Shown piece by piece: positions 3,727-25,258 of a stretch of DNA of 25,832 nt (positions within the stretch are counted from its first letter, which is position 1; each line of letters starts with the position of its first letter). The position numbers and the translations under genes were made by a program. The notes beneath the pieces are model-generated. The model had not been told where the DNA came from, searched no databases, and saw only the letters and a program-made list of their open reading frames with translations. This DNA is from a virus: positions 1-25,832 of IMG/VR virus record IMGVR_UViG_3300023281_000219; one strand, written 5' to 3'.

Positions 3727-3821
3727 TACGTTTCCTTTGTAGTTTTATGTTGATCTCTAAAGCTTTCAGTATCCTCTGTAGACAAGGCATCATCTATAAC
3801 TATTACTTTTCTTTTATTCAT
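3726..3821 (-). CDS. 31-codon ORF, N-terminal remnant of a 2OG-oxygenase-like gene
   Basis: This small frame fills the space between the first oxygenase and the 199-aa tail gene exactly. Its ATG lies 8 nt inside the end of the oxygenase gene and its TAA overlaps the next ATG (TAATG). The peptide begins MNKRKVIVIDDALSTED. That resembles the first beta strand of prolyl-4-hydroxylase-like proteins (iiviDdfLs.e) and the start of its neighbour (MNKK..REIIIFDDLFP). No catalytic residues follow. I read it as a truncated third oxygenase that may now serve mainly for translational coupling; the AAAGGAAAC before its stop is the ribosome binding site for the 199-aa gene. It may still be translated. Confidence 0.5.
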   Translation of the reverse strand: MNKRKVIVIDDALSTEDTESFRDQHKTTKET

Positions 3822-4365
3822 TATTTTTTTCAAAAAACATTGCTAGACTAAACCTATAATGCGGAGCAGTAATACTTTGAGTTCTTAACGTGTGGGGTAT
3901 TTCTCCATCAAATAGTATTCCTCTGTTAGGTTTGTATACAGAAGCAAACTCTATTTCATCACATTTGTCATTATAGAATAGTGTTTCTCCTGCCCACTCA
4001 GGCTTCCAATCTAAGTTTAAGTAATAGATAAATGACCAATTATTTAAATGTGTGTGAGGAAAATTAGTTTGAGTAGGAACTGATGTGTTAATAGTAGCCC
4101 TAGTAAGTTGCTTCTCTTTAATAAATTCGCCCATAGGTGTCTTATAAATTTGGTCAAACAATTTAGACTCTTCTAACTCTTCTACCCCGAAGTCAGCCGT
4201 ATAATATTTATGTGTTAGCCTTTCTATTGCATCAGTGTCTTGAAATCCAAGACCATAATTTCTTTTGTTTGAAGCAAAATTATAAAGGTATTCATGAAAT
4301 GCTTTAGGAAATAAATCATCAAATATTATTATCTCCCTTCCTAAGCTATCTATTTTTTTATTCAT
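3814..4365 (-). CDS. 2OG-Fe(II) oxygenase-like protein, HxH variant
   Basis: A 183-residue protein with the double-stranded beta-helix signature of iron/2-oxoglutarate oxygenases: NFPHTHLNNWSFIYYLNLDW (about 101-120, His104 and His106), WAGETLFYND, then the distal IPH (His158) and Arg171 in RFSLAMFF, placed for 2OG binding. The usual HxD is HTH here. Phage members of the 2OG-FeII_Oxy_5 type carry HxHxN at this place, so the variant may be normal for this subgroup; otherwise the metal site is altered. Substrate is unknown. It starts 8 nt inside the end of the second oxygenase gene. Such genes are frequent in marine phages. Confidence 0.7.
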   Translation of the reverse strand: MNKKIDSLGREIIIFDDLFPKAFHEYLYNFASNKRNYGLGFQDTDAIERLTHKYYTADFGVEELEESKLFDQIYKTPMGEFIKEKQLTRATINTSVPTQTNFPHTHLNNWSFIYYLNLDWKPEWAGETLFYNDKCDEIEFASVYKPNRGILFDGEIPHTLRTQSITAPHYRFSLAMFFEKNNE

Positions 4366-4885
4366 TATTTATTGATACTCCTGCATAAACAAACCAACTA
4401 ACTAAGACCTCTCTTGGTGTAGATGAAGGTGATACATAATGTCCAAATCCTCCATAAGGGGGAAATATTACTACTTTACCCTCTTCTGTTTTAATCTTTT
4501 TGTTCTGTTGTGGAAAGATAGTTTCTCCATCATTTGTGCTTAGATGTATTATAACTGAAGCATATCTAAGTAACCCATTTATTACTTCACCATCAGCGTG
4601 ATGTAAGCACTGTTCACCTTCATTATATCTATGGTACTCATACCCACTATCTGCTGAATCAAACTGAGGTTTATACCTTAGTTGCACCAACTCTTGTTGT
4701 ATGCTTTCCATCAAGCTATGTATTTTATTGTCTAGTTCTTTTAGCTCAGGTGTATTGGTAATGTCAACAGTGTTCCCTTCTCTGTTGTAACTTCCTACCT
4801 TGTTTAATTCAATATGTTTTCTACTTTGATTCTTTATTTCTTGAATCAATCCTAAGTCTACATAGTTAGGAAACTCATATATCAT
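4358..4885 (-). CDS. 2OG-Fe(II) oxygenase, prolyl-4-hydroxylase-like
   Basis: This 175-residue protein has the full facial triad: YEYHRYNEGEQCLHHADGE gives HxD (His96, Asp98), and FGHYVSP gives the distal His149 followed nine residues later by Arg158 for the 2OG carboxylate. The strand ASVIIHLSTNDGETIFPQ (about 109-126) is the typical core YLN...GGET-like strand. The length is that of a minimal P4Hc domain. It probably hydroxylates a protein side chain or a small molecule; the target cannot be read from sequence. It overlaps the cupin gene by 4 nt (ATGA-type junction) and the next oxygenase by 8 nt, so the three are coupled. Confidence 0.75.
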   Translation of the reverse strand: MIYEFPNYVDLGLIQEIKNQSRKHIELNKVGSYNREGNTVDITNTPELKELDNKIHSLMESIQQELVQLRYKPQFDSADSGYEYHRYNEGEQCLHHADGEVINGLLRYASVIIHLSTNDGETIFPQQNKKIKTEEGKVVIFPPYGGFGHYVSPSSTPREVLVSWFVYAGVSINNE

Positions 4886-5336: not shown

Positions 5337-6149
5337 TTAATTAACTTTAACACTCCCTATTTCTTTCGTAGCAAACCACTTATTGATTATCCAAGCTGTT
5401 ACATCAAACTCGCCTTTTTTAATTGCTGCATCTATTTTCCAAGGTTCTGAATGATGATTGTGATGTAACCCATCTGGTATTCCTAACCATAGAACCCAAG
5501 TATAATTCCAAGTAGTATCATTAGAATCAAAGTTTCTATATCCTTTAGGTAGCAATGCAGTATGAGTGAAGTAATTAACAAAATACATATCTAATATATA
5601 GCCTATTCCTGGAGGAGCTAATACTAAAAATATTGCAATCTTCCAGTCAATAAGAAAACTTATTGCTATTAAACTATACCAAAAAACATAATACCATTTG
5701 GCAGTAAAAGCTACTGCTTTATCTTTATATAAATCAACAGTAGTAAGTTTCATTCCTAGTTCTTTTTTCCATTTTTCAGGGCACCCTAACATCCATGTTG
5801 CTCCATGCAACACACCATCTTTAGGTGAGTGTATATCAAGTTCTTGGTCAGAGTATTTGTGATGGTGTCTATGCACAGTCGCCCAACCAATAGGACTTCC
5901 CTGTGCTGCCATTGTCCCTAGAAAACACAACACCTTATGTTTAAAAGGCGTGGTTTTAAATTGGTGATGAGAAAAGTATCGGTGTAAGCTCATGCTCATG
6001 CCACCAATTACCCATACTCTAGAAATTAAAAATGATGCTAAAAGCCACCAACCATAACCATAAAATACAGCTAATCCTATAGCTGCAATAGCACCTAAGT
6101 GAACAAATGTCCATAAAATTCTAAGGTTTAAGACTGTAGACGAAGGCAT
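5337..6149 (-). CDS. Membrane fatty acid desaturase 1 (acyl-CoA/ACP delta-9 type)
   Basis: A 270-residue integral membrane di-iron desaturase. All three histidine boxes are present: HRYFSH (56-61), HRHHH (93-97) and HHNHH (229-233), with the spacing of the bacterial stearoyl-desaturase family. Two hydrophobic hairpins precede box 1 (about 15-52) and lie between boxes 2 and 3 (about 152-195). It would introduce a cis double bond into an acyl chain, using oxygen and electrons from host ferredoxin or a reductase. Its ATG lies 22 nt inside the end of the acyl carrier protein gene, so the two are translationally linked. That linkage suggests the substrate may be acyl-ACP rather than acyl-CoA, an inference only. 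Confidence 0.88.
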   Translation of the reverse strand: MPSSTVLNLRILWTFVHLGAIAAIGLAVFYGYGWWLLASFLISRVWVIGGMSMSLHRYFSHHQFKTTPFKHKVLCFLGTMAAQGSPIGWATVHRHHHKYSDQELDIHSPKDGVLHGATWMLGCPEKWKKELGMKLTTVDLYKDKAVAFTAKWYYVFWYSLIAISFLIDWKIAIFLVLAPPGIGYILDMYFVNYFTHTALLPKGYRNFDSNDTTWNYTWVLWLGIPDGLHHNHHSEPWKIDAAIKKGEFDVTAWIINKWFATKEIGSVKVN

Positions 6150-6358
6150 AAATCAATAATATCCTTAACTGTTTGTAAATCTCCAACACTATCATCTGGT
6201 ATAACGATACCTAACTCTTCCTCTATAAATACAACTATCTCTACTGTTGCTAAAGAGTCTAAGCCTAAGTCATGTATGTTTTTATTGATATCTATGTCTT
6301 TTACTGGGGTTTTAATTTCTGCGGATATTATATTTAATATCTGATTGTTTATACTCAT
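6128..6358 (-). CDS. acpP: Acyl carrier protein
   Basis: A 76-residue ACP of normal length. It has the phosphopantetheine attachment motif DLGLDSLATVEIV with Ser35, and acidic helix II (VEIVVFIEEELGI) which is the docking surface for fatty acid enzymes. It would be converted to the holo form by the host ACP synthase and carry acyl chains. The ribosome binding site AAAGG lies 6 nt before the ATG, and the ATG is 1 nt after the stop of desaturase 2. The gene lies precisely between two desaturases, so it is part of that cassette rather than a stray. A carrier for another specialised acyl pathway is the main alternative. The symbol follows the family and does not mean orthology with host acpP. Confidence 0.9.
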   Translation of the reverse strand: MSINNQILNIISAEIKTPVKDIDINKNIHDLGLDSLATVEIVVFIEEELGIVIPDDSVGDLQTVKDIIDLCLRLQS

Positions 6359-6359
6359 A

Positions 6360-7175
6360 CTAAACCTTTACAATTTTATCAAAAGACTTTGCAACAGCAT
6401 CACAGGGGACACCTATTAACTCTATAACTTTAGCAGAGTAATCAAACTCACTAGGCAATAATGCTAAGTTGTATAGCCTAGGATTACTATGATGAGTATT
6501 ATGATACCCCTCACCCCATAGAAGCCATGCAAAAAGTTGACTGTTATATGTAAAATCAGGTGAATCAAACAACCTGTAACCTTTGTAGGCCAACTTAGGT
6601 ATATGAGCTATCACAGTTATATAACTAATACCAAAAAATACATATAACATACTAACACAATAAAAATAAGCTGCTATCTTAATATCTATTAAAGCTAGTA
6701 ATCCAATCCATCCTAATACTATTTTATAGTAATGTCTGTGAAAAAACATATGGTCTTTGTCTGCAATTAAATCTTTTACTCGCATAGGATTTACTTGATA
6801 AGGAGCAAAGTAATAAAACCATATTTTTATTTTATTCCATAAAGAACCATTTGGTGGATGTGGGTCTTTATCTGTATCTGATGTGCCATGATGTAGCCTA
6901 TGCGTATCACACCAATATATTGTACTGCCCATACTTACTATAGTACCAAAGAATAATAACATGATTTTTATTATTCTATTTTTTGGTTTAAAAGACTGGT
7001 GAGCAGACATCTTGTGTAACGCCATACTAGAACCAAAGCCTGTAAGAAACCATCCCCAAAGTAAAGCTAATATTACTAAGGATGTGTTCCACCAAAAAAG
7101 TAGTGTTGCTATTGCTCCAATGTAAGCAAAAGCCTGTACTACTTTTATCTTAACATTATTACTTATATTAAATAT
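6360..7175 (-). CDS. Membrane fatty acid desaturase 2, no canonical start codon
   Basis: The frame contains all desaturase histidine boxes: HKMSAH, HRLHH and HNTHH. From the first ATG at 7025 the protein would be only 221 residues and would begin four residues before box 1, without the first transmembrane hairpin. The same frame stays open upstream to a stop at 7179-7181 and encodes the missing part (VQAFAYIGAIATLLFWW...LVILALLWGWFLTGFGSSMALHK), matching desaturase 1. No ATG, GTG or TTG occurs in it. The best start is ATA at 7175-7173, 7 nt after AGGGA, giving 271 residues against 270 for the paralogue. It would overlap the upstream gene by 8 nt. A sequencing error, a remote frameshift or a short inactive protein are alternatives. 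Confidence 0.75.
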   Translation of the reverse strand: MFNISNNVKIKVVQAFAYIGAIATLLFWWNTSLVILALLWGWFLTGFGSSMALHKMSAHQSFKPKNRIIKIMLLFFGTIVSMGSTIYWCDTHRLHHGTSDTDKDPHPPNGSLWNKIKIWFYYFAPYQVNPMRVKDLIADKDHMFFHRHYYKIVLGWIGLLALIDIKIAAYFYCVSMLYVFFGISYITVIAHIPKLAYKGYRLFDSPDFTYNSQLFAWLLWGEGYHNTHHSNPRLYNLALLPSEFDYSAKVIELIGVPCDAVAKSFDKIVKV

Positions 7176-21221: not shown

Positions 21222-21576
21222 AGTCAAACCTAAAACCATAGTCAGCAGCCCAAGCTTTAACGTCCTCAATGTATTCCTTAAATTCTTTCTTAGTCATCTT
21301 GCTAGTAGATGCAATAGTAGTAATTTTTAAATTTTTTACCTGCTTTTCCTTTGACAAAAGTTTGTAAGCAAGTACCTCGTGCATCTCTTCCCTGCTATGT
21401 AGGCCAAAATAATTTGCCATCTCGGATATCATTTTCCAATAATACTCATTGTGATCCGTTGAACGCTTAGGTTCAAAAGGCGTAACCACTACCCTCCAAA
21501 TTTTATTGTTATCCAGCTGGCTTAATTTTTCTTTTAATGCACCCATGTTATGTTTACTCAAGTTAAAATCAATCAT
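21214..21576 (-). CDS. ninB: NinB-like recombination protein
   Basis: The 120-residue protein contains IWRVVVTPFEPKRSTDHNEYYWKMISEMANYFGLHSREEMHEVLAYKLL in pieces and ends with TSKMTKKEFKEYIEDVKAWAADYGFRF. This is the NinB/Orf pattern: basic WxVxV strand, RS..QN..YW core, and a C-terminal TS.Ms..EF..yie.v..wa helix. Lambda NinB (Orf) binds single-stranded DNA and helps phage recombination, replacing host RecFOR functions. The length is slightly shorter than lambda NinB (146 aa). It overlaps its two neighbours by 8 nt each, so it is part of a tightly coupled unit with the Ref-like nuclease. Confidence 0.75.
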   Translation of the reverse strand: MIDFNLSKHNMGALKEKLSQLDNNKIWRVVVTPFEPKRSTDHNEYYWKMISEMANYFGLHSREEMHEVLAYKLLSKEKQVKNLKITTIASTSKMTKKEFKEYIEDVKAWAADYGFRFDYE

Positions 21577-21889
21577 CGTTCCACCCCATTTTTTTTCTTA
21601 TTTCGTTTATCTTTTCCTTTACAGCTTCCTTATCAATCTTTGGCTTAGGTAATTGTGGAGCAAAAGGTATTGATTTAGATCTGCATAGTATCAATATATC
21701 ATAAGGTGTTGGCTTTGTGCTTGCTGCCTGCACCCAGGTATCAAAACTTGCTGCAACTGTCTTGAATGGATATTTTTCTAGCTTACTCCACCAGATCCTT
21801 AAGTTGTTTTTATCTGGTGACTGTTTTGAATAGATAGCCATAACAGACTCTAGCATTTCCTTAAAACTTTTTTTATCGTAATTATCCAT
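21569..21889 (-). CDS. Probable helicase loader-like replication protein, 106 aa
   Basis: A small helical protein: KSFKEMLESVMAIYSKQSPDKNNLRIWWSKLEKYPFKTVAASFDTWVQAASTKPTPYDIL, in pieces. The WW..L..Y....V..AF..w......KPTP.DIL pattern is typical of phage proteins of the G39P-like loader class or of short proteins that follow a DUF1376 initiator; they are thought to help load the host replicative helicase. I chose the ATG at 21889, whose A is the last base of the preceding stop codon (TAATG), with GGAGGT upstream. The assignment rests on pattern and context. Confidence 0.55.
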   Translation of the reverse strand: MDNYDKKSFKEMLESVMAIYSKQSPDKNNLRIWWSKLEKYPFKTVAASFDTWVQAASTKPTPYDILILCRSKSIPFAPQLPKPKIDKEAVKEKINEIRKKMGWNDD

Positions 21890-22578
21890 TAGAATGTTAC
21901 CTCCTCTGGTTGTTCGTCCTTCCATCTGTGCTGGTTTAGATAAGTTGCTGGATAAGGAACGTACTTGCCATTACTTTCAAACCAATCCTTACTAGTCTTT
22001 TGCCAAGACAAAGCATGCAACACTTCATCAAGCTTAGGTTTCTGCTTTATCCATGACTCTAAAGCTTTGGCCCTGCTGACTTTCTTTGGATACAAACTCC
22101 AGAACTGCTCAAAATCATCATTGGCGAGCACAAGCTTTTTAGATGGTTTATGGTTCTTGGTTTTTGGTTTATGGTTAATGGTTATTGGTTCTTGGTTCTT
22201 GGTTAGCATACCATGTGCATTGCATGTGGTATCCATGTGCATTGCAGGTGCATCTTCCTCCTTATTCCACCTAGCATTTGAGGCCTTTACTTTCTTTTCA
22301 ATCTGCGAATGGTACTCTGCAATCGCCACTTGGCAACGCTTATGCGTATACCCATCCTTAACTTCCATAAAGAAATCTTCCAGCACATTCTTGATAGCAT
22401 TTTTCTCTTCCTCTGTATGAACTGACATTAGCCTATAAAGTTTATCCAGATCTAATGGCAGTGGTTTTTCGTTTAAATAGTATTGGTCCATCAGTTGACG
22501 GTATACGCCATGCTCTAACAATGTTAGGTGTGCCGTGTCCCTTCGGTAGTCGCCAATGTTATGTTGGTAGTAGTGCAT
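21889..22578 (-). CDS. DUF1376-type replication initiator
   Basis: Residues 1-75 match DUF1376 (MHYYQHNIGDYRRDTAHLTLLEHGVYRQLMDQYYLNEKPLP, in pieces), a winged-helix-like domain of phage replication initiators. The C-terminus (about 157-225) has FWSLYPKKVSRAKALESWIKQKP and W....GKYVPYPATYLNQHRWKDE, as in lambda O / DnaT-type primosomal proteins. The two are joined by a linker of seven-residue repeats (KNQEPIT, INHKPKT, KNHKPSK), which is encoded by nine 7-bp iterons. So the protein probably binds an origin within its own gene, as lambda O does. The AAAGGAG ribosome binding site is strong. It is followed by the loader-like gene. Confidence 0.8.
   Translation of the reverse strand: MHYYQHNIGDYRRDTAHLTLLEHGVYRQLMDQYYLNEKPLPLDLDKLYRLMSVHTEEEKNAIKNVLEDFFMEVKDGYTHKRCQVAIAEYHSQIEKKVKASNARWNKEEDAPAMHMDTTCNAHGMLTKNQEPITINHKPKTKNHKPSKKLVLANDDFEQFWSLYPKKVSRAKALESWIKQKPKLDEVLHALSWQKTSKDWFESNGKYVPYPATYLNQHRWKDEQPEEVTF
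22144..22206. repeat. Nine 7-bp iterons (TGGTTNN), candidate replication origin
   Basis: Nine copies of TGGTT at exactly 7-bp steps (22144, 22151, 22158, 22165, 22172, 22179, 22186, 22193, 22200) lie inside the replication initiator gene. The fixed bases are unchanged in all nine and only the last two vary. Iterons inside the initiator gene are the arrangement of lambdoid origins. A pure protein repeat would not require the DNA period to be 7. Confidence 0.7.
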
Positions 22579-22592
22579 CTCTTCTCCTTTGT

Positions 22593-22760
22593 TTATGCCT
22601 GGTCCTTCATAATGTCTTCTATCTGAGCAGCCCTATATTTAGGCAACTCTTTGTCTGGACTCTTAGAATAGTAATACACATTTTGCCTCGTTACGCCCAA
22701 TGCTTTGGCCATCCGAGTGTTGTTATATCTAAATAACTTAATTGCTTCATTGTAAGTCAT
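22593..22760 (-). CDS. Cro-like DNA-binding regulator, 55 aa
   Basis: The 55-residue protein MTYNEAIKLFRYNNTRMAKA followed by LGVTRQNVYYYSKSPDKELPKYRAAQIEDI has the helix-turn-helix of P22 Cro / YdaS-type phage regulators: LF..N..rMAkALGVTRQ.VYyw....lP..RA.qIe. I chose the ATG at 22760, 7 nt after GAGG; a longer frame upstream would start inside the promoter. It is the first leftward gene after the divergent control region that carries palindromes, so it most likely represses its own and/or the rightward promoter. No CI-type repressor is visible in the window. Confidence 0.75.
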   Translation of the reverse strand: MTYNEAIKLFRYNNTRMAKALGVTRQNVYYYSKSPDKELPKYRAAQIEDIMKDQA

Positions 22761-22800
22761 AGTGTTTCCTCTATAGTTAAAATTGCAAGATTGCCAGCCG

Positions 22801-22829
22801 AGTATAAAGTTTTGTAAAACAAATTGCAA
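22801..22829 (-). promoter_or_regulatory. Leftward early promoter, TTGCAA-17-TATACT
   Basis: Minus strand TTGCAA (22824-22829) and TATACT (22801-22806) are 17 nt apart, directly upstream of the Cro-like gene. The -35 lies in a 10-bp palindrome AATTGCAATT (22822-22831), which suggests autoregulation by a bound dimer. Confidence 0.7.
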
Positions 22830-22854
22830 TTGATAAAGTAAAAATAATTAAAAT

Positions 22855-22897
22855 ATTTGTACAAATGACAAATAGTATGCTACAGTTACTTGTAACT
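22855..22897 (+). promoter_or_regulatory. Rightward early control region with two palindromes
   Basis: ATTTGTACAAAT (22855-22866) is a perfect 12-bp palindrome. AGTTAC-tt-GTAACT (22884-22897) is a perfect 6+6 inverted repeat. Between them, TTGTAC (22857-22862) and TACAGT (22881-22886) with an 18-nt spacer are a weak promoter for the plus-strand operon. The two palindromes are good operator candidates for the adjacent Cro-like protein. No gene lies in 22761-22919. Confidence 0.5.
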
Positions 22898-22919
22898 TAA
22901 AAAAACAAAGGAGATACAA

Positions 22920-23264
22920 ATGAAATTAACAGACACATTATCAGTAATCAAGGCTATGGACAGGCCTTCATTGGACGACTTAGCTTTTACCTGGATTACT
23001 GAATCACCTAAATCTTGGGACATCACTCAAGAAATTAAAGACCATTACTTTGAAATTACCGAAGAAAAATTTGGCCACATCCAGACACACGAGCTTGCTC
23101 AACAAATTGATTGGAAGGCAGTTGTTGATCTTCTTATAGATTGTGAGCAAGATAAAATTGACCAAGCAGAAGAAGAAAGACTAGACATTGAGCGTGGTTG
23201 GGAAAGTGGTAGATATTACACTGACCGAGAAACAGGGATGGTTGAAGAAAGAAATGTTTATTAA
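22920..23264 (+). CDS. Hypothetical early protein, 114 aa, first of rightward operon
   Basis: I do not recognise this acidic helical protein. It starts MKLTDTLSVIKAMDRPSLDDLAF, contains ITQEIKDHYFEITEEKFG.IQTHELAQQIDWKAVVDLLIDCEQDKIDQ and ends with charged, Tyr-rich residues (RGWESGRYYTDRETGMVEERNVY). It has the strong early ribosome binding site ACAAAGGAGATACAA directly before the ATG, and the next gene has the same site. Being the first gene downstream of the control region, it may be an immediate-early host takeover or regulatory protein. Confidence 0.6.
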   Translation: MKLTDTLSVIKAMDRPSLDDLAFTWITESPKSWDITQEIKDHYFEITEEKFGHIQTHELAQQIDWKAVVDLLIDCEQDKIDQAEEERLDIERGWESGRYYTDRETGMVEERNVY

Positions 23265-24535: not shown

Positions 24536-25258
24536 ATGAAACCAACTAATCAAGTCTTTAAGACCAATGATTATGATACCTTTAGTTACATCAAGGGTAA
24601 CCGTAGTATCAATAAGCTTAATTTAAAACGCATTACTAATTCTATGCGAGAAAATTATATTCCTGTGCCCATTATTGTTAATGAAAAAAATCAAATCATT
24701 GATGGCCAGCACAGATTTGAAGCAGCAAAATCTTTAAAAAAAGAAGTATATTGCATAAAGATTCCTAAGCTTGGATTAAAAGAAGTAACAACCTTAAACA
24801 CCAACACAGCAAACTGGAACAATGCTGCATGGTTAGAAAGTTATGTTGACTTGGGATTTGAGGCCTACGTTACGTTTAAAGAATTTCGTAAAAAAACTGG
24901 TTTTGGTTATAGTATTTGCAGTGCTTTATTGGCCAACCAAAGTCAAAGAACTGGAACTCTTAGCCGTGAATTTAAAGACGGAAAGCTTAAAATTAAAAGT
25001 TTAGCAACTGCGTATGCTAATGCTAAAAAATTAGACCAAATTGGTGAGTATTTTGAAAACTACAAGTCAGATTCTTTTTCTGGTTGTATGTTGCAATTAA
25101 TGCACCATGAGCAGTACGACCACGCAAGAATGTTACAAAAATTAAAATTACAAGCTCATACGTTACCAAAAAGTGCTAATGGTGATAGGTATAAAAGAGA
25201 CTTGATAGATATTTTTAATTATCATGTAGCAAAGAAAAACAAAGCAGCATTTTTTTAA
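24536..25258 (+). CDS. ParB/Srx-like domain protein, 240 aa
   Basis: The N-terminal region (about 15-85) has the ParB/sulfiredoxin-type core: DTFSYIKGNRSINKLNLKRITNSMRENYIPVPIIVNEKNQIIDGQHRFEAAKSL in pieces, with IDGQHRFEA being the signature G-x-H-R motif of ParB nuclease-like domains. The remainder is helical with no clear homologue (TFKEFRKKTGFGYSICSALLANQSQRTGTLSREFKDGKLKIK). Phage ParB-like proteins can be DNA-binding, CTPase or nuclease. AAAGGAG precedes the ATG, which lies 1 nt after the exonuclease stop. It lies between recombination genes, so a DNA-related role is likely. Confidence 0.7.
   Translation: MKPTNQVFKTNDYDTFSYIKGNRSINKLNLKRITNSMRENYIPVPIIVNEKNQIIDGQHRFEAAKSLKKEVYCIKIPKLGLKEVTTLNTNTANWNNAAWLESYVDLGFEAYVTFKEFRKKTGFGYSICSALLANQSQRTGTLSREFKDGKLKIKSLATAYANAKKLDQIGEYFENYKSDSFSGCMLQLMHHEQYDHARMLQKLKLQAHTLPKSANGDRYKRDLIDIFNYHVAKKNKAAFF

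Follow-up and report, generated by a model that had tools for sequence, protein, structure and literature searches.

In this work, we identify by computational analysis two phased DNA repeat arrays in the stretch of a DUF1376 gene that encodes the linker of its protein, and this linker DNA is probably a bipartite replication origin lying inside its own initiator gene. We take it as an origin because its layout matches those of ori-lambda and pSK41. The window, that is, the whole stretch of DNA analysed, is a 25,832-base IMG/VR virus record (IMGVR_UViG_3300023281_000219). The features of the window gene and of its surroundings are collected in Table 1.

Table 1. Features of the DUF1376 gene of the window, with its putative origin elements and the adjoining gene
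Feature	Position	Strand	Basis or remark
DUF1376 replication initiator gene, 229 aa	21889..22578	-	PF07120, E 8.6e-31; PHROG families
Winged-helix-like N-terminal domain, aa 1-106	22261..22578	-	AlphaFold2, pLDDT 93-97 over most
Linker, aa 107-151, probably disordered; its coding DNA holds both repeat arrays	22126..22260	-	pLDDT about 42-50 over most
C-terminal helical domain, aa 152-229; varies between relatives	21892..22125	-	AlphaFold2; C-terminal PHROG families differ
11-bp/22-bp repeat array, coding strand TGCAATGCACA TGGATACCACA TGCAATGCACA ...	22212..22253	-	proposed first element of the origin; candidate dsDNA iterons
Imperfect palindrome ATACCATGTGCATTGCATGTGGTAT, 25 bp, 10/12 pairs, overlapping the 11-bp array	22208..22232	.	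direct sequence reading
7-bp array, nine units NNAACCA on the coding strand	22144..22206	-	proposed second element of the origin
Downstream neighbour gene, weakly helicase-loader-like	21569..21925	-	phrog_2289 helicase loader, E 8.9e-6

The earlier note on this DNA had reported nine perfectly phased 7-bp units, with a shift of the reading frame from one repeat to the next, and both statements were confirmed. Read directly, the units are TGGTTTA, TGGTTCT, TGGTTTT, TGGTTTA, TGGTTAA, TGGTTAT, TGGTTCT, TGGTTCT and TGGTTAG; the five fixed bases are invariant in all nine of them and only the two spacer bases vary. Under an order-2 Markov model of the window, the longest period-7 run of any 5-mer reached 2 in 186 and 3 in 14 of 200 simulations, compared to the 9 observed. 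The array was picked up by Tandem Repeats Finder too, and it is the single array of this kind in the whole record. Its A/C-rich strand is the coding strand, on which the units are read in all three frames in turn, so that 9 x 7 bp correspond to 3 x 7 amino acids (TKNQEPITINHKPKTKNHKP).

The protein encoded by the window gene matched DUF1376 above threshold, with 106.6 bits versus a Pfam cut-off of 30.1, and it also matched PHROG families of primosomal proteins (E 1.5e-50) and of replication initiation proteins. DUF1376 was the only match in the Pfam scan, in which neither the lambda O domain family nor RepA_N (PF06970) was found; no O-like PHROG matched the window protein, and such PHROGs match some of its relatives. 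In the AlphaFold2 model, which was built on a 107-sequence alignment, helices of the N-terminal domain are followed by a beta hairpin and then by a long helix. With VIA-align, this domain gave Z scores of 5.8 (4pql), 5.5 (5kbj, Rep-DNA) and 4.8 and 4.6 (DnaD), with a top Z of 6.3, and other winged helices scored alike. These middling matches to a common fold, the N-terminal domain of DnaD among them, support a winged-helix topology of the predicted domain, not kinship. A search of solved structures by sequence gave no relative of the window protein, and Foldseek alone returned nothing below E 1.

In the window, the weakly helicase-loader-like gene that follows the initiator gene is itself followed by a NinB gene. 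Among the 63 next genes examined in relatives, 24 match P-like and 12 DnaC-like helicase loaders, and the DUF1376 gene is most commonly followed by one for such a loader or for a DnaB-like helicase. The earlier note had described an initiator-type gene with a layout like that of lambda O. The PHROG families, the model and the downstream loaders bear out this description, which does not hold for the lambda O sequence family, since the Pfam match is to DUF1376 only. On the other side of the gene, positions 22829-22920 are intergenic and separate a Cro-like gene (22593-22829, minus strand) from a divergent, rightward operon, which contains genes for a YqaJ exonuclease and a ParB-like protein. Elsewhere in the window, on the minus strand at 5337-7025, two fatty acid desaturase genes (PF00487) flank an acyl carrier protein gene (PF00550, 6128-6358); judged by these matches, the cassette would be lipid-modifying, which is unusual for a phage. 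Two adjacent genes beside it (3814-4885, minus strand) are weakly 2OG-Fe(II) oxygenase-like (PF13640).

When viral contigs were searched by DNA pattern alone, using five phased TGGTT, at least 120 viral stretches matched. Among the matches listed, the array lay inside an ORF on the AACCA strand in 120 out of 120 cases, and each of the 16 records holding a match had one array locus. The array-bearing DUF1376-like proteins carry many C-terminal families (O-like, DnaD-like and Phg_2220_C). It is very unlikely that the array is an ordinary heptanucleotide microsatellite produced by replication slippage. Runs with the same core exist as TGGTTAA, TGGTTCG and TGGTTGT in bacterial chromosomes and as noncoding ACCAATG-type runs in phages, but microsatellite runs are made mostly of identical units, whereas neighbouring spacers of the DUF1376 arrays agree at only 0.33-0.48 around a constant core. 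Moreover, 119 of the 121 proteins scanned (those of the matches listed plus that of the window) were DUF1376-like, unlike a microsatellite without a link to a gene family. In one bacterial class the pattern was found in 10 of 274 genomes, mostly with uniform units, and the one array with four different spacers (genome G142) lies in a DUF1376 gene. Mostly uniform TGGTTAA, TGGTTCG, TGGTTAC and TGGTTGT microsatellites, with several matches per genome, were seen in four genomes (G070, G104, G107 and G256). The reversed pattern, TTGGTNN x5, is an unclean control because arrays with an A after the core (AACCAA) match it too; its other matches were microsatellites of mostly identical units.

A set of 127 nonredundant DUF1376 genes was assembled by a search with the N-terminal domain only and from relatives selected by protein, the array not being used in choosing them. 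At least three exact 7-bp units were present in 90 of these genes, with the core AACCA in 67, CACCA in 17, ACCCA in 3, AAACA in 2 and ACACA in 1, and the coding strand of every core class is A/C-only. Of the repeat number and phase, whose lack of conservation in relatives the earlier note named as a possible refutation, the 7-bp phase is kept even in very diverged relatives, while the number is not, with 3 to 9 units per array. In the other 37 members (about 29%), fewer than three exact units of the tested cores were present, and E. coli YdaU is devoid of them; the 7-bp array is therefore not obligatory for the family. None of the members lacking an in-gene array had it displaced outside the gene in the flanks examined. 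The 7-bp array has 85% A+C on one strand, and its AT content lies 9-14% above the gene mean, an excess that is confined to the array (mean of 74 relatives). Most prophage hosts were Beta- or Gammaproteobacteria; single genomes or bins of Nitrospirota, Verrucomicrobiota and Planctomycetota were also among them. With the changed cores AAACA, ACCCA and ACACA the peptide differs and the 7-bp period persists, as in the linkers of L444 and L468 and in L066, L043, L470 and L471; members with such heptad cores form a natural test set for finding out what recognizes the array.

The claim that selection acts on the DNA itself, also made in the earlier note, was upheld by synonymous shuffling, by the choice of wobble codons and by the comparison of close relatives. 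Synonymous codons were shuffled within each gene, preserving the protein and its codon usage, with 12 shuffles per gene. Period 7 exceeded all 12 shuffles in 99 of the 127 DUF1376 genes and period 11 in 79 of them, counts that are not fully independent since the genes are related by descent. The harmonics 14, 22 and 21 did so in 87, 60 and 38 of the 127 genes, respectively, and any further period in 3-21. As controls, 159 other genes from these loci were put through the test; period 7 was obtained in 10 of them and period 11 in 7, which is the chance level. With lambda O as a positive control, the shuffle test returned periods of 20, 23, 24 and 44 at the annotated iterons. In the window gene alone, the observed value of period 7 was reached by 2 of 200 shuffles, a modest result, since part of the signal comes from the peptide repeat as such; the gene's periods 11 and 22 were above all 200 shuffles.

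At the motif N[HQ]xP, which was chosen by protein, Asn is encoded by AAC in 179 of 182 cases (52% elsewhere in the same genes), Pro by CCA in 115 of 118 (27% elsewhere) and Thr by ACC in 143 of 149 (32% elsewhere), with p below 1e-40 for this codon bias. Such fixation of the motif codons (CCA 97%, ACC 96%, AAC 98%) indicates that selection acts on the DNA. AACCA falls in the three reading frames 201, 152 and 138 times, so all three are used. Between close relatives, core positions showed 0 differences in 3600 comparisons (pairs not independent), compared to 5.7% at first and second codon positions of the spacers and 10.2% at third positions outside, with the array defined in one sequence only. 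Two differences separate the array of the window from that of its nearest relative (L010), both of them at spacer bases.

These data bear on the possibility that selection acts on the protein, through a conserved NHKPxTx linker peptide repeat, and make it hardly credible. The peptide repeat NQEPITNNHKP is itself widespread, but synonymous positions are fixed, period 7 is lost under synonymous shuffling and the linker is predicted to be disordered (AlphaFold2). Furthermore, other members have the same 7-bp period with other peptides (HQTPDTKHQTP, NNPIPNNPI and KQETINNK). Its view of the linker peptide repeat as a by-product of the DNA array appears to be right.

The 11-bp array, which is absent from the earlier note, lies directly upstream of the 7-bp array within the window gene. 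Across the family, in 35 of the 63 genes with a clear 11-bp signal, the consensus has at least four of five dyad pairs (about 11% expected), and it is typically TGCGAACGCA or AACGGACGTT. These dyads are mostly located 0-17 bp upstream of the 7-bp array, which they nearly always precede. The result was replicated in 93 further genes, in which only the 120 bases before the 7-bp array were scanned: period 11 was found in 29 of them and period 22 in 26, while other periods were found in 1-6. A step of 11 bp puts successive dyads on almost one face of the double helix, an arrangement to be expected of sites at which a protein binds duplex DNA. On the DUF1376 tree, the 7-bp motif class changes 8 times versus at least 15 times in 300 label shuffles, and the 11-bp motif class 17 times versus at least 28. 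Since both motif classes follow this tree, both elements travel with the N-terminal domain. In three members (L321, L380 and L448), an 11-bp repeat (GAACAGGTGTT) also occurs at about nt 175 of the DUF1376 gene, in the part encoding the conserved N-terminal domain, and dyads may thus be present at two places within one gene. The 11-bp dyads beside the 7-bp array are at least as good a candidate for initiator sites as the 7-bp units.

From the layout of the locus we infer protein binding, strand opening, helicase loading and use as an origin, and propose the following course of events. The initiator would bind DNA with its winged-helix domain and end in a helical C-terminal domain; the disordered linker between the two would be encoded by the origin DNA. 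First, the winged-helix domain, as an oligomer, would occupy the dyad-symmetric 11-bp repeats. Next, contact would be made with the adjoining 7-bp array, which is AT-enriched and strongly strand-asymmetric, with A/C on the coding and G/T on the other strand. At this step there is about an even chance that the array is melted and one of its strands held in 7-base steps; the chances that additional copies of the initiator instead bind it as duplex, with one copy on each heptad, are somewhat below even. Finally, DnaB would be recruited by the C-terminal domain together with the putative helicase loader encoded just downstream, and replication would start.

The version that follows the earlier note takes the 7-bp units as duplex iterons, bound cooperatively by one initiator copy per heptad, with the 11-bp repeats being accessory. 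We regard it as possible, if rather doubtful. Cooperative duplex binding of contiguous heptads is known for omega2 on pSM19035 parS, where 7-10 heptads are bound by about one dimer each (PMC4498918), and the 7-bp motif class tracks the DUF1376 tree. However, the AACCA core is found in 67 of the 90 classified genes even though their N-terminal domains are mostly 35-55% identical to that of the window, and it is the 11-bp repeats that vary more (17 versus 8 class changes), as initiator binding sites would. The fixed polarity, the A/C-only strand and the AT enrichment of the 7-bp array also suit an unwinding element better. The more frequent class changes of the dyads on the tree lead us to a narrow preference for the reading in which the 11-bp dyads would be the duplex sites of the initiator and the 7-bp array the element that is opened and held single-stranded.

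The arrays might also be cis elements of the initiator gene other than an origin, namely an autoregulatory or partition-like (centromere-like) site. Heptad arrays bound by omega2 act as centromeres and operators (PMC4498918), and a ParB-like gene is present at 24536-25258 of the window. This explanation is nevertheless improbable, as the arrays are located mid-gene rather than at promoters, they are tied to a replication initiator in phages of many kinds with helicase loaders downstream, and the origins of lambda O and RepA_N sit at exactly this position in the gene.

If the linker DNA is an origin, the sequence signature described here shows where replication is likely to start in many uncultivated phages and prophages. 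In the open-access literature we found no account of what DUF1376 does and none of 7-bp arrays in phage initiators, and terms for repeats or origins are absent from a paper on the replication region of Stx phages (PMC8044961). DUF1376, which is named once each in just five papers of that literature, now gets a testable function. The gene would carry two overlapping codes, a DNA signal of 7 and 11 bp being kept in register within a protein gene, with the protein sequence following. As the N-terminal domain and the arrays stay together and are combined with varying C-terminal domains, the family is a ready-made collection of module swaps in which to study how helicase loading is specified. In its broadest form, our proposal is that DUF1376 proteins are a large class of phage replication initiators with a family-wide in-gene bipartite origin, in which the 11-bp iterons diverge with the protein and the near-constant, polar, A/C-only 7-bp array serves as a single-strand loading platform in 7-base steps; we put this forward tentatively, as an idea with a little less than an even prospect of being right.

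Several known systems share parts of this organization. The Rac prophage of E. coli encodes YdaU, a DUF1376 protein, next to YdaV, a putative ATP-binding protein, and has an active origin, oriJ (PMC3945230). In the K-12 Rac locus (L473, 6120-7730, ydaU-ydaV), the YdaU linker contains AACAGGTGTT and AACAGATGTT dyads and no heptads. Our guess is that these dyads are a candidate site of oriJ; we found no source mapping oriJ to ydaU.

The contiguous 7-bp units resemble those of pSM19035 parS, which has 7-10 of them; unlike the DUF1376 arrays, parS is bound by a ribbon-helix-helix protein, omega2, has a partition and operator role and is located in promoters (PMC4498918). Plasmid Rep holds strand-specific DUE 13-mers as ssDNA (PMC4081077). 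By analogy, the DUF1376 arrays are short AT-enriched repeats beside candidate iterons, possibly held single-stranded by a winged-helix initiator, but their unit is 7 instead of 13 and they are in-gene.

In pSK41, the N-terminal winged helix of the RepA_N protein binds boxes that lie centrally in the rep gene, and the protein can do without the linker encoded by the origin (PMC5703833). DUF1376 initiators would share with these pSK41-type RepA_N proteins of staphylococci a winged-helix N-terminus, which in DUF1376 is predicted, the central linker with repeat DNA and DnaD-like parts (PMC5703833). In contrast, they have no RepA_N sequence match, and pSK41 is described with four Rep boxes and without a 7-bp array (PMC5703833). 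The hosts differ as well, being Firmicutes for RepA_N, while DUF1376 arrays are mainly found in phages of Proteobacteria.

Ori-lambda consists of iterons and an AT-rich tract in the middle of O, and the O protein binds A/T-rich single strands too (PMC7466680). As in lambda O and also in Stx phages, the DUF1376 genes have repeats in mid-gene with an AT-enriched tract beside them, and a helicase-loader gene usually comes next, as P follows O in lambda. By sequence, however, DUF1376 is a different protein family, and where lambda has four 18-bp iterons at a spacing of 20-24 bp, the DUF1376 genes have 11-bp dyads followed by 3-9 contiguous 7-bp units.
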